From: Pseudorhodoferax sp. Leaf274
Lineage (GTDB): Bacteria > Pseudomonadota > Gammaproteobacteria > Burkholderiales > Burkholderiaceae_C
NCBI RefSeq assembly: GCF_001422445.1
Contig: NZ_LMNA01000026.1
Span: forward strand, 124,001-188,000
Length of the DNA stretch: 64,000 nucleotides
Direction: 5' to 3'
The notes beneath the pieces were generated by a model. It was given only the letters and a program-made list of their open reading frames with translations. It made no database searches and was not told where the DNA came from. Positions 39,781 to 56,750 of this stretch are shown in pieces. The translations under genes and the position numbers were made by a program. Numbering within the stretch: the stretch's first letter is position 1; every line of letters begins with the position of its first letter.

Positions 39781-40485
39781 TCAGCCGCCCAGGTAGGCCG
39801 TCCTGACGCCTTCGTTGGCCAGCATGTCCGCGCCCGTGCCCTGGCTGACGACCCGGCCGTTGGTCAACAGGTAGGCGCGGTTGCACATCTGCAGCGCCGC
39901 GTAGGCGTTCTGCTCGACCATGAGCACCGTCGTTCCCTCGCGCCGCACCTCCTGCACCAGCGCGAAGATCATCTCCACGAAGTTGGGCGCCAGGCCCAGC
40001 GAGGGCTCGTCGAACATCACCAGCCGCGGGCGCGACATCAACGCGCGCGCGATCGCCAGCATCTGCTGCTCGCCACCCGACAGCGTGCCCGCGGCCTGGC
40101 CGCTGCGCTCGCGCAGGCGCGGGAACTTGTCGAACATGTGCTCCATGTCCTGGCGCATGCGCTGGCGGTCCGTGCGGCGGTAGCCGCCCATCTCCAGGTT
40201 CTCGCGCACCGAGAGCTGCGGGAACACGCGCCGGCCCTCGGGGCAGTGTGCGATGCCGCGGTCGATGATCTGCGCCGGCATGGCGCCGGAGATCCTGTGG
40301 CCGTCGAAGTGGATGCTGCCGCCGGCCAGCGGCTCCAGCCCGCTGATGGCGCGCAGCGTGGTCGACTTGCCGGCGCCGTTGGCGCCGATCAGCGTGACCA
40401 GCTCGCCTTCCTGCACTTCGAGCGAGACGTGGTCCACGCCCAGGGTGGCGCCGTAGCGCACGGAGACTTGTTCAAGCTTGAGCAT
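39781..40485 (-). CDS. livF: ABC transporter ATP-binding protein LivF
   Basis: A 234-residue ATPase of the branched-chain amino acid (HAAT) type. Walker A GANGAGKST, signature TLSGGEQQMLA, Walker B LVMFDEPSLGLAP, H-loop replaced by VEQN as is normal for LivF. It overlaps livG by 14 bases. Last gene of the unit; it powers import with LivG. Confidence 0.93.
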   Translation of the reverse strand: MLKLEQVSVRYGATLGVDHVSLEVQEGELVTLIGANGAGKSTTLRAISGLEPLAGGSIHFDGHRISGAMPAQIIDRGIAHCPEGRRVFPQLSVRENLEMGGYRRTDRQRMRQDMEHMFDKFPRLRERSGQAAGTLSGGEQQMLAIARALMSRPRLVMFDEPSLGLAPNFVEMIFALVQEVRREGTTVLMVEQNAYAALQMCNRAYLLTNGRVVSQGTGADMLANEGVRTAYLGG

Positions 40486-41251
40486 GCTGCAGCCCCGATC
40501 CGAGGTAGGCGCGAATGACTTCCGGGTCCTGCTGGATGGCCTGGGGGCCGCCGGTGGCGATGAGCTTGCCGTGGTTCAGCACCACGATGTGGTCGGAGAT
40601 CGACATCACCATGTGCATGTCGTGCTCCACCAGCAGCACGGTGACGCCGCTGTCGCGGATGCGGCGCACCATCTGCTTGAAGGCCTCGGTCTCCGACGGG
40701 TTCAGGCCCGCGGCCGGCTCGTCCAGCAGCAGCACGCGCGGCTGCGCGGCCAGCGCCAGGCCCACGCCCAGCAGCCGCTGGTCGCCGTACGAGAGGTTGC
40801 TGGCCAGCTCGTCGGCACGCGATTGCAGGCCGAGGAAGCCCAGCATCTCGCGCGCCTGTTCGCGCAGCCTGTCTTCCTCGCGCCGGAAACCTGCGCCGCG
40901 CAGCAAGGCCTGCAGTACGCCGCTCGATCCGCGCAGGTGCAGGCCCGTGAGGATGTTGTCGAACACCGTGCAGCCCGCGAACACGCTGGTGCGCTGGAAG
41001 CTGCGCACCAGGCCGCGCTGGGCGATGCGGTCGGGCGATTGGCCCGTCACGTCCTCGCCGAACAGCAGCACGCGGCCGGCGGTGGGCCGCATGTAGCCGG
41101 AGATCGCGTTGAAGGTGGTGGTCTTGCCGGCGCCGTTGGGGCCGATCAGGCTCACGATCTGGCCGGCTTCGACGGCGAAGCTCAGCTGGTCGACGGCGCG
41201 CAGGCCGGCGATCTGGACCGTGACCCCTTCGAGTCGCAGGACTTCGCTCAT
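40472..41251 (-). CDS. livG: ABC transporter ATP-binding protein LivG
   Basis: A 259-residue ATPase. Walker A GPNGAGKTT, signature LSYGDQRLLGVGLAL, Walker B VLLLDEPAAGLNPSE, H-loop VEHDMHMVM. ATG 41251 (MSEVLRLEGVTVQIA) chosen by family start. It is separated from livM by a 241-base gap that holds a long inverted repeat. Confidence 0.92.
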   Translation of the reverse strand: MSEVLRLEGVTVQIAGLRAVDQLSFAVEAGQIVSLIGPNGAGKTTTFNAISGYMRPTAGRVLLFGEDVTGQSPDRIAQRGLVRSFQRTSVFAGCTVFDNILTGLHLRGSSGVLQALLRGAGFRREEDRLREQAREMLGFLGLQSRADELASNLSYGDQRLLGVGLALAAQPRVLLLDEPAAGLNPSETEAFKQMVRRIRDSGVTVLLVEHDMHMVMSISDHIVVLNHGKLIATGGPQAIQQDPEVIRAYLGSGLQHAQA

Positions 41252-41326
41252 GCTTTTATGTCCCTGTGGTGGTTTTTGCAGGTGGTGCGCGAGGGTTGTG
41301 GCCCAGACGGCAGGCGGCGCAGACAC

Positions 41327-54604: not shown

Positions 54605-55719
54605 TGGGCACGGCCACCGACTTCTCCGCCTGGGCCGCGCCGTTCGCGGGCGCCGCCTGGCGCACCGTGGTGCGCCGCCGCGCGGCGCTGCCGCACCTGG
54701 GCCGCGACGTGCTGCTGCACGCCGGCCCGCCGTTCGAAGGCGCGCCGCCCGCGCCGGTGCGCCAGGCCGCCGTGCAGGCCCTGCTGTTCGAGGGGCTGGC
54801 CGGCGATCCGGCCGGCGCCCAGGCGCTGCTGGCCACGGGCGCCGTGCGCCTGGTGCCCGCGCAGGACCATGGCGTGGCCACACCGCTGGCCCAGGTGGTC
54901 TCGGCCGCGATGCCGCTGGCCGAGGTCGGCGACGGCAGCACGCAGGCTTGGGCGCCGCTGGTGGAGGGCCCGCCGCCTGCGCTGCGCTTCGGCAGCGCCG
55001 ATCCGGCCGCGCTGCCGCGCCTGCAGGCCATCACCGAGCTGGGCCTGCAGCGCCTGGCTCCGCTGCTGCAGGCACGGCCGCTGGCGCTGGCCCCGGTCAT
55101 CGCCCAGGCGCTCGCCGAAGGCGACGAGTGCCACGGCCGCACCGGGGCCGCCAACGCCGCGCTGCTGGCCCGGCTCGAGGGCCTGGCGGATGCCGACCGC
55201 GCGCTGCTGGCCGGCAGCCCCGGCTTCGTGCTCACGGTCCTGATGGCCGCCGCCGCCTGGCGGCTGCGCCATGGCGGCGGGCGCATCGCCGCGGTCGGCG
55301 GCAACGGACTGCGCTTCGGCCTGCGCCTGCGCGGCGATGCCGGCTGGCGCGCCATCGATGCGGCGCCGCCCACGGGCACGCGCTTTCCCCAGCACGCCGG
55401 CGCCACCGCGCTGGGCGCCATCGGCGACAGCGCGGTGCTCGATTTCTGCGGCCTGGGCGGCCAGGCGCTGCCGGCTGCGCCGGCCCTGTGCGAGGAATGG
55501 CGCGGCTCGCTGCCGGCCGACCTTGCGCCACGCCGCACGCTGGTGACCGACGCCGTCTCGGGCCTGGTCGACCCCGCCTGCGTGGCCGCCAGCGGCCTGC
55601 CGCCGCTCGTCAACCTCGCCGTGCTCGATGCATCGGGCCAGGCCGGGCTGATCGGCCGCGGCTGGTACGCACCCGATCCTTCGCTGTTCTTCCCCTCTGC
55701 CGAAAGACCCACGCCATGA
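54604..55719 (+). CDS. AllG/YlbE-like DUF1116 protein
   Basis: A 371-residue DUF1116 protein. Matches to E. coli YlbE/AllG pattern: LLHAGPPFEGAPP, ALLFEGLAGDP, GDECHGRTGAANAALL, VVxGNGxRFGLRL-type segment, and LVNLAVLDASGQAGLIGRG. In E. coli AllG is one of three subunits of the oxamate carbamoyltransferase of allantoin breakdown. Here the AllF (FdrA) and AllH partners are missing. So the function may be different. Shorter than YlbE (about 420). Confidence 0.8.
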   Translation: MGTATDFSAWAAPFAGAAWRTVVRRRAALPHLGRDVLLHAGPPFEGAPPAPVRQAAVQALLFEGLAGDPAGAQALLATGAVRLVPAQDHGVATPLAQVVSAAMPLAEVGDGSTQAWAPLVEGPPPALRFGSADPAALPRLQAITELGLQRLAPLLQARPLALAPVIAQALAEGDECHGRTGAANAALLARLEGLADADRALLAGSPGFVLTVLMAAAAWRLRHGGGRIAAVGGNGLRFGLRLRGDAGWRAIDAAPPTGTRFPQHAGATALGAIGDSAVLDFCGLGGQALPAAPALCEEWRGSLPADLAPRRTLVTDAVSGLVDPACVAASGLPPLVNLAVLDASGQAGLIGRGWYAPDPSLFFPSAERPTP

Positions 55720-56750
55720 AGCTGCCTTCGCTCTCCCGCATCCGCACCGGCGCCCTGCTGGCGCTGGCCGCCCTGGCCGGCGCCAGCCAGGCGCAGCAAC
55801 CCACCAAGCTGCGCTTCGCGCTGGACTGGGTGTTCCAGGGCCCGCAGGCACCGTTCCTGGTGCCGCACCAGAACGGCTGCTACCAGAAGGCCGGCCTGGA
55901 CGTGACGACCGACCGCGGCTTCGGCTCGGGCGACACCGTGGTCAAGGTGGGCGCGGGCACCTACGACGTGGGCTTCGCCGACATCAACGCGATGGTCGAG
56001 TACAACGCCAAGCAGACCCGGCCCGAGGACCGGCTGATCGCCTTCTTCATGGTCTACGACGGCGCCGCGCTGTCCATCATCACGCGCAAGGACACCGCCG
56101 TCGCCAAGCCGGCCGACCTGGTCGGCAAGACCATCGCCGCGCCGCCCGGCGACGCCTCGCGCCGGCTGTTCTCGGCGCTGGCCCAGGCCAACGGCTTCGA
56201 CGCCAGCGCCGTCAAGTGGATCAACGTGGCGCCAGAGCTGCGCGAGACCATGCTGGCGCGCAAGCAGGCCGACGCGATCAGCGGCGCGGCCTTCACGGGC
56301 TACATGGGCGCACGCGCCGTCGGCGTGCCCAAGGACGACCTGGTCGTGCTGCGCTTCCCGCAGTTCGGCTCCACGCTGTACGGCAGCGCGCTGGTGGCCA
56401 AGCGTGCGTTCGCCGCCAGCCACGGCGCGGCGTTGACGGCCGTGGCGCAGTGCGTGGCCGAGGGCATCGCCACCAGCATCCGCCAGCCCGCCGCCGCCAT
56501 CGAGGCGCTGTACCAGCGCGACAAGCTCATCAACCGCGAGGTCGAGCAGGAGCGCATGCAGTTGTCGCTGGACTGGTCCATCGTGACGCCCTGGACGCGC
56601 GAGCACGGACTGGGCGGCGTCGATCCGGCGCGGCTGCGCAAGTCGATGCAGGAGGTGTCTGCAGCGCTGGACATCCCGGCGCCCGACATCGCCGAGGTGT
56701 TCACGGCGCAGTACCTGCCGGCACCGGAGCGCCGGGCGGTGCCCAGGTAA
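55716..56750 (+). CDS. NMT1/THI5-like ABC substrate-binding protein
   Basis: A 344-residue periplasmic binding protein with signal peptide (LLALAALAGASQAQ). NMT1 family motifs: LRFALDWVFQGPQAPFLVPHQNG in parts, GSGDTVVKVGAGTYDVGFADINAM, LVGKTIAAPPGDASRRLF. Relatives bind pyrimidine, riboflavin, nitrate or taurine. No matching ATPase or permease is adjacent; it may dock to another transporter. The start overlaps the DUF1116 stop in ATGA. Confidence 0.88.
   Translation: MKLPSLSRIRTGALLALAALAGASQAQQPTKLRFALDWVFQGPQAPFLVPHQNGCYQKAGLDVTTDRGFGSGDTVVKVGAGTYDVGFADINAMVEYNAKQTRPEDRLIAFFMVYDGAALSIITRKDTAVAKPADLVGKTIAAPPGDASRRLFSALAQANGFDASAVKWINVAPELRETMLARKQADAISGAAFTGYMGARAVGVPKDDLVVLRFPQFGSTLYGSALVAKRAFAASHGAALTAVAQCVAEGIATSIRQPAAAIEALYQRDKLINREVEQERMQLSLDWSIVTPWTREHGLGGVDPARLRKSMQEVSAALDIPAPDIAEVFTAQYLPAPERRAVPR

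Follow-up and report, generated by a model that had tools for sequence, protein, structure and literature searches.

A 16-gene locus at positions 39781-56750 of a 64,000-nucleotide stretch of Pseudorhodoferax sp. Leaf274 DNA (contig NZ_LMNA01000026.1, positions 124,001 to 188,000; hereafter the window) encodes an AllG-like protein that is, judged by its predicted structure, tree placement and searches of genomes for its partners, a 'solo' AllG, i.e. a protein of AllG fold that belongs to a separate clade and lacks AllF and AllH partners. It is encoded with a MarR regulator, a molybdenum (Mo) hydroxylase, an amidohydrolase (AH) and a predicted oxamate amidohydrolase. We give about even chances to the reading that the locus forms a catabolic regulon with which the cell scavenges nitrogen from an N-heterocycle, and in which oxidising enzymes, ring opening and cleavage of oxalurate- or oxamate-type amides would yield oxalate and ammonia. 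A more far-reaching proposal, which we regard as doubtful, is that solo AllG is a new one-component enzyme cleaving an oxalurate-like ureide alone, at the heart of an unrecognised proteobacterial pathway that leads, by way of parabanate-like compounds, from oxidised imidazole, hydantoin or pyrimidine rings to oxalate and ammonia; five kinds of oxidising entry enzyme would be exchangeable in it under one MarR operator.

The AllG-like protein forms a clade without AllF and AllH partners

The AllG-like protein scored 109 bits against PF06545 (cut-off 27). Its predicted structure (mean pLDDT 94.2) had a sole Foldseek match at E <= 0.001, the AllG relative 3clq (E 3e-22), and beyond it Foldseek returned only folds with E >= 3. 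To our knowledge, the function of the AllG fold is known only as one third of a carbamoyltransferase. Residues E63, R128, G173, H177, N234, G235, G274, D275 and S276, among others, were invariant across 44 sequences (40 solo, four not). The AllG tree of 44 sequences split into groups of 8 and 36 with a support of 100/100, the window protein and all solo ones falling in the 36. An AllF-type gene adjoins AllG in six of the eight stretches of the smaller, non-solo group; in the other two (L097, L100) no AllF gene was seen within the short stretch examined. Two sequences labelled canonical before the tree was built (L098, L101) were nevertheless placed with the solo group, and L098 adjoins AH and MarR genes.

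AllH (PF11392) was found in none of 19 solo-AllG genomes and in both of two control genomes. AllF was likewise absent from the 19 genomes, bar one weak partial match (G534, 29% over 200 of 530 aa), and present in both controls. According to PMC11326118, the E. coli oxamate transcarbamylase requires AllF, AllG and AllH; hence the window's AllG cannot be that enzyme as defined, and the three-subunit oxamate carbamoyltransferase was rejected as a candidate. The term AllG-like, used in an earlier sequence-only reading of this DNA, is apt for the fold and the PF06545 match and not for the AllFGH enzyme. A label of 'short' AllG was discarded as well, since E. coli AllG has 419 aa (same source) and the AllG cluster has a median of 399 in 74 loci; 'solo' fits, 'short' does not. 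The purine-route carbamoyltransferase covered by PMC4016543 is another carbamoyltransferase and was set aside.

The window's AllG type is carried by 70 named loci from beta-, gamma- and alphaproteobacteria, each defined by a short pattern match together with a tblastn match and ending at 10 kb flanks or contig ends. Five solo AllG loci (L040, L042, L046, L050, L077) have no AH in the stretch; a 203-208-aa protein (c26; no Pfam match for the one sequence tested) adjoins, and four of the five carry another Rieske oxygenase type, as four of the five carry an amidase. A PRK06031-type phosphoribosyltransferase (one tested) lies near solo AllG in six loci (L014, at 13612-14331, L041, L043, L048, L086 and L090), a possible hint at a nucleobase-like substrate.

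The Ntn hydrolase is of the HpxW type

The hydrolase that the sequence-only reading called GGT-like is indeed an Ntn hydrolase, but not a true gamma-glutamyltransferase (GGT), a candidate rejected on its score of 320.1 bits, under the TIGR00066 cut-off of 357.85. Its best solved match is PDB entry 5hft (1e-97 and 8e-79 for the two chains; tool label gamma-glutamyltranspeptidase), with which it shares 184/338 (54%) and 121/186 (65%) identical residues by chain, and its nucleophile Thr347 aligns to residue 1 of chain B. We take 5hft to be HpxW of K. pneumoniae, an oxamate amidohydrolase. In a tree of 21 proteins, with HpxW itself left out and five same-genome paralogues as long branches, the window's hydrolase groups with GGT-family proteins from other loci with solo AllG and from L017 and L021, which are AllF-linked, and the five other GGT-family genes of the window's genome fall outside this HpxW-type clade. 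An AllF-type CoA-ligase protein and an amino-acid kinase adjoin AllG in L021. As the clade takes in proteins of AllF-linked loci, HpxW and AllG are linked outside the window's locus as well. On these alignments the GGT-like protein is of the HpxW type and a predicted oxamate amidohydrolase, the activity for which hpxW is named in PMC12625717.

Organization of the locus

All families named by the sequence-only reading were confirmed in the locus by Pfam matches and start calls, which gave a MarR gene, an 11-gene minus arm and a 4-gene plus arm. The minus arm runs in the order SDR, Fe(II)/2-oxoglutarate (2OG) oxygenase, CoxL, CoxM, CoxS, CoxG, LivK, LivH, LivM, LivG and LivF, and the plus arm in the order AH, Ntn hydrolase, AllG-like protein and NMT1 receptor. 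MarR does lie between the arms as had been claimed, with the refinement that its own gene, too, lies on the minus strand, is oriented divergently to AH and is separated from SDR by a 231-bp gap. The minus arm had also been described as tightly overlapped, and this holds for most junctions (overlaps of 4-14 bases or gaps of 7-39 bases) but not between livM and livG, where 241 bases of repeat intervene. The features are as follows.

39781-40485, minus strand: LivF, ABC ATPase (Pfam ABC_tran, 1e-32)
40472-41251, minus strand: LivG, ABC ATPase (ABC_tran and BCA_ABC_TP_C; start call)
41493-42533, minus strand: LivM permease (BPD_transp_2; start call)
42530-43402, minus strand: LivH permease (BPD_transp_2)
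43419-44576, minus strand: LivK substrate-binding protein (Peripla_BP_6, 2e-63)
44616-45317, minus strand: CoxG-like accessory protein (COXG, 6e-7)
45307-45840, minus strand: CoxS, 2Fe-2S subunit of the Mo hydroxylase (Fer2, Fer2_2; start call)
45837-46655, minus strand: CoxM, FAD subunit of the Mo hydroxylase (FAD_binding_5, 2e-38; start call)
46652-49072, minus strand: CoxL, Mo-cofactor subunit (best solved relative quinoline 2-oxidoreductase; GIGEGG present)
49093-50067, minus strand: 2OG oxygenase (best solved relative thymine dioxygenase; HTD and RIS motifs present)
50075-50830, minus strand: SDR (best NCBIfam score pyridoxal 4-dehydrogenase, under cut-off, 224 vs 325 bits)
50866-50880, minus strand: sigma-54-like -24/-12 element TGGCATGGCAGTTGC of the minus arm (like site before SDR in 5/6 loci)
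50953-50964, no strand: putative MarR operator GTGGTGCACCAC, upstream of the minus arm
50996-51010, no strand: weak NtrC-like imperfect palindrome (pattern match)
51062-51571, minus strand: MarR regulator (MarR, 6e-14; start call)
51606-51620, no strand: weak NtrC-like imperfect palindrome (pattern match)
51629-51643, plus strand: sigma-54-like element TGGCACAAATTGTGC of the plus arm (one base at -12 off the strict pattern)
51642-51653, no strand: putative MarR operator GCGGTACACCAC, overlapping the -12 of the plus-arm promoter
51691-52962, plus strand: AH, PRK09237-family amidohydrolase (NCBIfam NF006689, 422.6 bits vs cut-off 371; metal-site residues HGH, K, H, H, D)
53003-54604, plus strand: HpxW-type Ntn hydrolase, predicted oxamate amidohydrolase (nucleophile Thr347; identity to 5hft chains; tree)
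54604-55719, plus strand: solo AllG, DUF1116 fold without AllF/AllH (PF06545 over cut-off; predicted structure; tree)
55716-56750, plus strand: NMT1/SsuA-like substrate-binding protein (NMT1, 8e-22)

CoxL, CoxM and CoxS make up a three-subunit set of the kind found in Mo hydroxylases of N-heterocycles, with the glutamate in GEGG that we take to be a mark of Mo hydroxylases. Aerobic CO dehydrogenase (CODH) was rejected, because CoxL stayed below the NCBIfam cut-offs for the CODH large subunit (451 vs 991 and 521.5 vs 950 bits); nor was the loop pattern that we presume to mark the CODH active site found in CoxL. The score above cut-off and the metal-site residues place AH in the PRK09237 amidohydrolase family. 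Amidohydrolase 2ogj belongs to the same family and has the metal-site residues in the alignment, which consists of two matched stretches only; we take 2ogj to be Atu3266, from a branch whose substrates are presumably acyloxy acids, unlike the role proposed here for AH.

The 241-bp insertion between livM and livG (41252-41492) has inverted-repeat arms, and the same two genes overlap in the sister genome G069. Pieces of the insertion, 70-98% identical, turn up at several genomic positions (15 matches including itself); it is a small palindromic element in dispersed copies. A second CoxS-CoxM-CoxL-type Mo enzyme set at 14819-18500 of the window is distant from that of the locus (26-39% identity). 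Just outside the locus lie an Amidohydro_3 protein (34794-36680) and an isochorismatase-fold protein (33832-34482), and positions 19294-20766 encode a Schlafen/AlbA_2 protein with a Fic-like C-terminal domain.

Conservation of the gene group

Nine of 150 genomes of the family had an AllG-like match. Four carry the window's type (G000, G069, G056 and G148, assigned by neighbours or clade) and three the AllF-linked type (G046, G101 and G110, assigned by neighbours), while G029 and the weak match in G025 were given to neither. AH matches of at least 60% identity over most of the length occurred in five of the 150 genomes, including all four of the window's type (AH is broken in G148), compared with 148 having any AH-superfamily match at E <= 0.001. 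CoxL matches at E <= 1e-150 were restricted to three genomes, all among the same four. The gene grouping exceeds chance. An AllG-like gene was present in five of six Pseudorhodoferax genomes, and an AllG-family match in 6 of 369 genomes of the class.

Genes of the 70 loci were called by a simple script and clustered with an identity cut-off of 38% and a coverage cut-off of 60%; some of the loci are closely related, and L020 (from G029) was kept outside neighbour statements. AH was found in 55 loci, CoxM in 45, MarR in 43, CoxL and CoxS in 42 each and CoxG in 40, the CoxL figure being a lower bound (44 when a second cluster of pieces is counted). Next came an SBP3 transporter (27), amidase (24), PhyH oxygenase (16), GGT (14), HpxZ (13), Rieske oxygenase (10), SDR (7), window-type 2OG oxygenase (5) and NMT1 (5). 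AH and CoxL occur together in 39 of the 70 loci, and AH, AllG, MarR and CoxL all in 27; in loci such as L031, L032 and L037, AH, CoxLMSG, Liv-type genes and AllG even form one same-strand run. The sequence-only reading would have been refuted had the arms not been conserved together in relatives; this was not the case, and both arms carry the same putative operator. A conserved co-occurrence of all the families, which that reading proposed to look for, is seen for the AH/AllG/MarR/CoxL core but not for the exact set, which is rare and not the conserved unit, as the 2OG and NMT1 counts document. An arrangement identical to the window's was seen in L027, filed as Variovorax boronicumulans. Besides four loci of the Pseudorhodoferax group, Stutzerimonas azotifigens (L080) has the window-type 2OG oxygenase; there SDR, 2OG oxygenase and LivKHMGF stand together near AH, CoxLMSG, AllG and an amidase.

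A damaged relative lies in Xylophilus sp. ASV27 (L016, 1324-7499, the same as locus L091), with AH in two pieces with a stop and part of AllG joined to a truncated LivG.

A common palindrome and sigma-54-like promoters

Counted by strand, the motif GYGGTRYACCAC matched three times in the window, at two sites (50953-50964 and 51642-51653), with 0.13 expected. Its palindrome core GTGGTRYACCAC, allowing at most one mismatch, had 69 intergenic and 13 genic matches in the 70 loci on which it was also discovered, and the intergenic ones were spread over 34 loci; nine permuted palindromes used as a control gave 0-6 intergenic matches. The nearest gene downstream of the core was, among others, AH (44 times), MarR (38), the SBP3 transporter (12) or SDR (5). 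It occurs in 32 of 38 loci with a MarR of at least 55% identity, compared with 2 of 32 without. This common palindrome beside marR and candidate target genes represents a putative operator. The exact site was present in 12 of 14 genomes scanned, and the five exact sites in the genomes of L080, L073 and L087 are all inside the locus. Caballeronia sordidicola has two further intergenic palindromes, one before an ABC transporter and one beside a luciferase-type gene.

Sigma-54-like sites were sought with the strict pattern GGCAY-N5-TTGC, the sigma-54 and NtrC consensus sequences being those we presume to be standard. They precede the SBP3 transporter in 24/27 cases, AH in 27/45, SDR in 5/6, Rieske genes in 5/8, a second Liv-type binding protein in 7/22, MarR in 1/50, AllG in 0/16, and genes outside these and the rest of eleven named clusters in 19/428. 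A relaxed pattern matched three times in the 64 kb, and two of these matches are the promoters of the two arms. Two of the eight matches of an NtrC-like pattern in the window lie between the arms; such sites are suggestive only.

Exchangeable entry enzymes and ureide-type neighbours

None of the ten loci with a Rieske gene (typed as VanA_C from one tested) contains CoxL (Fisher 3e-5), although, with several loci being close kin, Fisher values overstate independence. CoxL relatives above 35% identity were found in none of the ten Rieske-locus genomes, whereas three control genomes gave 63-68%. Likewise, the window-type 2OG oxygenase (5/70) and PhyH (16/70) never occur in the same locus. Palindromes in L056 stand before PhyH, before a run of transporter, luciferase-type monooxygenase and flavin reductase genes, and, at a distance of 32 bases, before another luciferase-type gene. 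The pattern resembles a single core combined with differing entry enzymes, namely Mo hydroxylase, Rieske, 2OG, PhyH or luciferase-type.

Relatives of the locus additionally encode HpxZ (NF033625, 180 bits vs cut-off 135; cluster in 13/70 loci), a PRK08310 amidase (541 vs 391 bits; 24/70) and, together with a DUF1989 protein in L047, L063 and L072 (3/70), an M20 enzyme of the hydantoinase/carbamoylase family (TIGR01879, 362 vs 204), a single representative of each having been scored. A palindrome lies 334 bases upstream of the M20 gene in L072. Small ureides, oxalurate or amides are the compounds for which the HpxW, AllG, HpxZ, amidase and M20 families are described, and for this reason we put oxalurate and oxamate at the pathway's end.

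A proposed pathway and its rivals

As the sequence-only reading put forward, these genes are still best interpreted as serving to import and hydroxylate an N-containing compound and to cleave an amide in it, with MarR in control, although we infer the substrate and the order of steps. In the scheme that we propose, LivKHMGF and the NMT1 protein would import the compound, most likely a cyclic ureide (hydantoin, imidazolone or pyrimidinone), and CoxLMSG would place oxygen onto a carbon adjoining a ring nitrogen. The 2OG oxygenase and SDR of this strain may oxidise a side group, e.g. from methyl to alcohol to aldehyde. AH would open the oxidised ring to an oxalurate-like ureide, solo AllG would split this to oxamate, and the HpxW-type enzyme would convert oxamate to oxalate and ammonia. 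MarR is predicted to repress both arms via the common palindrome, and a sigma-54 activator, probably NtrC, would turn both on under nitrogen shortage. The scheme is weakest in its substrate, in the solo AllG reaction and in the absence of the hydrolases from many loci.

Several observations weigh against this scheme. In 41 of the 70 loci neither an HpxW-type gene nor a PRK08310 amidase is present in the stretch examined; the oxamate end may thus be optional or wrong. The kinase cluster seen beside AllF-linked AllG is absent from all 70 solo loci; were carbamoyl phosphate the product of solo AllG, a carbamate kinase would be expected, and no such cluster member occurs there. G037 has AH at >= 60% identity but no AllG match, and one genome of the genus lacks AllG. 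On the regulatory side, six MarR loci lack the palindrome, L034 and L090 have it without that MarR, and the genomes of L059 and L068 have zero exact sites. The window's genome contains five exact palindromes, as many as for a control pattern, and only that of the locus is intergenic; with 4/5 inside genes, as likewise in P. xenovorans, no further regulon members are indicated. Across six Pseudorhodoferax genomes the count was not above that of the control pattern. Moreover, the plus-arm sigma-54 element is imperfect, the AH site satisfying the relaxed pattern only, and the NtrC-like enrichment is weak (13/51 for AH and SDR vs 29/414).

The main rival, possible though improbable in our view, is a carbon-source pathway for an N-heteroaromatic acid or methylated pyrimidine, in which AH and the Ntn hydrolase would act on ordinary half-amides, without oxalurate or oxamate, and solo AllG would have a new, unrelated activity. 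The nearest solved relatives, quinoline 2-oxidoreductase for CoxL and thymine dioxygenase for the 2OG enzyme, suit it, as do the 41 of 70 loci in which the stretch examined shows neither the HpxW-type gene nor the amidase. Against it, the HpxW, HpxZ, M20 carbamoylase and AllG families recur together in one gene set, and the sigma-54-like sites indicate nitrogen control. We consider it unlikely that two separate pathways share a repressor by chance, the minus arm serving one compound and the plus arm oxalurate/oxamate salvage. AH, AllG, amidase and GGT do occur without CoxL in several loci (for example L057, L058, L059, L068), but these four have a Rieske oxygenase instead, and the single same-strand run in loci such as L031, L032 and L037 also speaks for one pathway. 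MarR regulators often sense small aromatics, which would fit a locus where MarR senses a toxic heterocycle or aromatic and oxygenases clear it, but such detoxification is very improbable, as importer genes of named clusters in 57 of 70 loci and the sigma-54-like sites suit feeding, not clearance.

If the proposed nitrogen-scavenging scheme is true, it offers a role open to testing for an AllG-family clade whose Pfam name cannot be right, and implies that soil and marine proteobacteria have an oxidative route from ureides to oxalate. GTGGTRYACCAC together with a sigma-54-like promoter would then be a signature for recognising the gene set in other genomes. The exchange of Mo hydroxylase for Rieske enzyme around a single core amounts to a natural experiment and should aid identification of the substrate.

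Relation to known systems

A literature search covering mostly titles and abstracts, with subscription papers mostly outside it, yielded no description of such a locus, and no matching account was found in the literature searched for homarine, for parabanic acid, hydantoin and oxalurate, or for the AH family. The nearest known systems each share a part of it. With AllFGH and AllK of the E. coli allantoin pathway (PMC11326118) the locus has in common the AllG fold, the invariant residues and the oxalurate/oxamate chemistry proposed here; it differs in that solo AllG stands without AllH and, bar the weak partial match, without AllF, in a separate clade (100/100) and with no kinase cluster. Klebsiella hpxWXYZ (names as in PMC12625717) is represented by the HpxW-type protein, at 54% and 65% identity by chain, and by HpxZ over cut-off in a relative. 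Here, however, the HpxW-type gene accompanies a Mo hydroxylase, AH and solo AllG, no purine-ring enzymes were recognised in the window's locus, and the relatives' amidase is under the AtzE cut-off (208 vs 461).

The cyanuric acid operon atzDGEHF (PMC6219798), compared for its amidase and AtzH only, resembles some relatives in combining an amidase and an AtzH/HpxZ-like protein for small ureides, whereas the window's locus has neither. Riboflavin breakdown by LumJ and a Rieske enzyme, as presented in PMC12746152, follows a similar logic, with ring hydroxylation by a Mo enzyme followed by an oxygenase and hydrolysis. Its gene set is a different one, for which reason it was rejected as the identity of the pathway, and in the loci studied here the Mo hydroxylase and the VanA-type Rieske enzyme are mutually exclusive.

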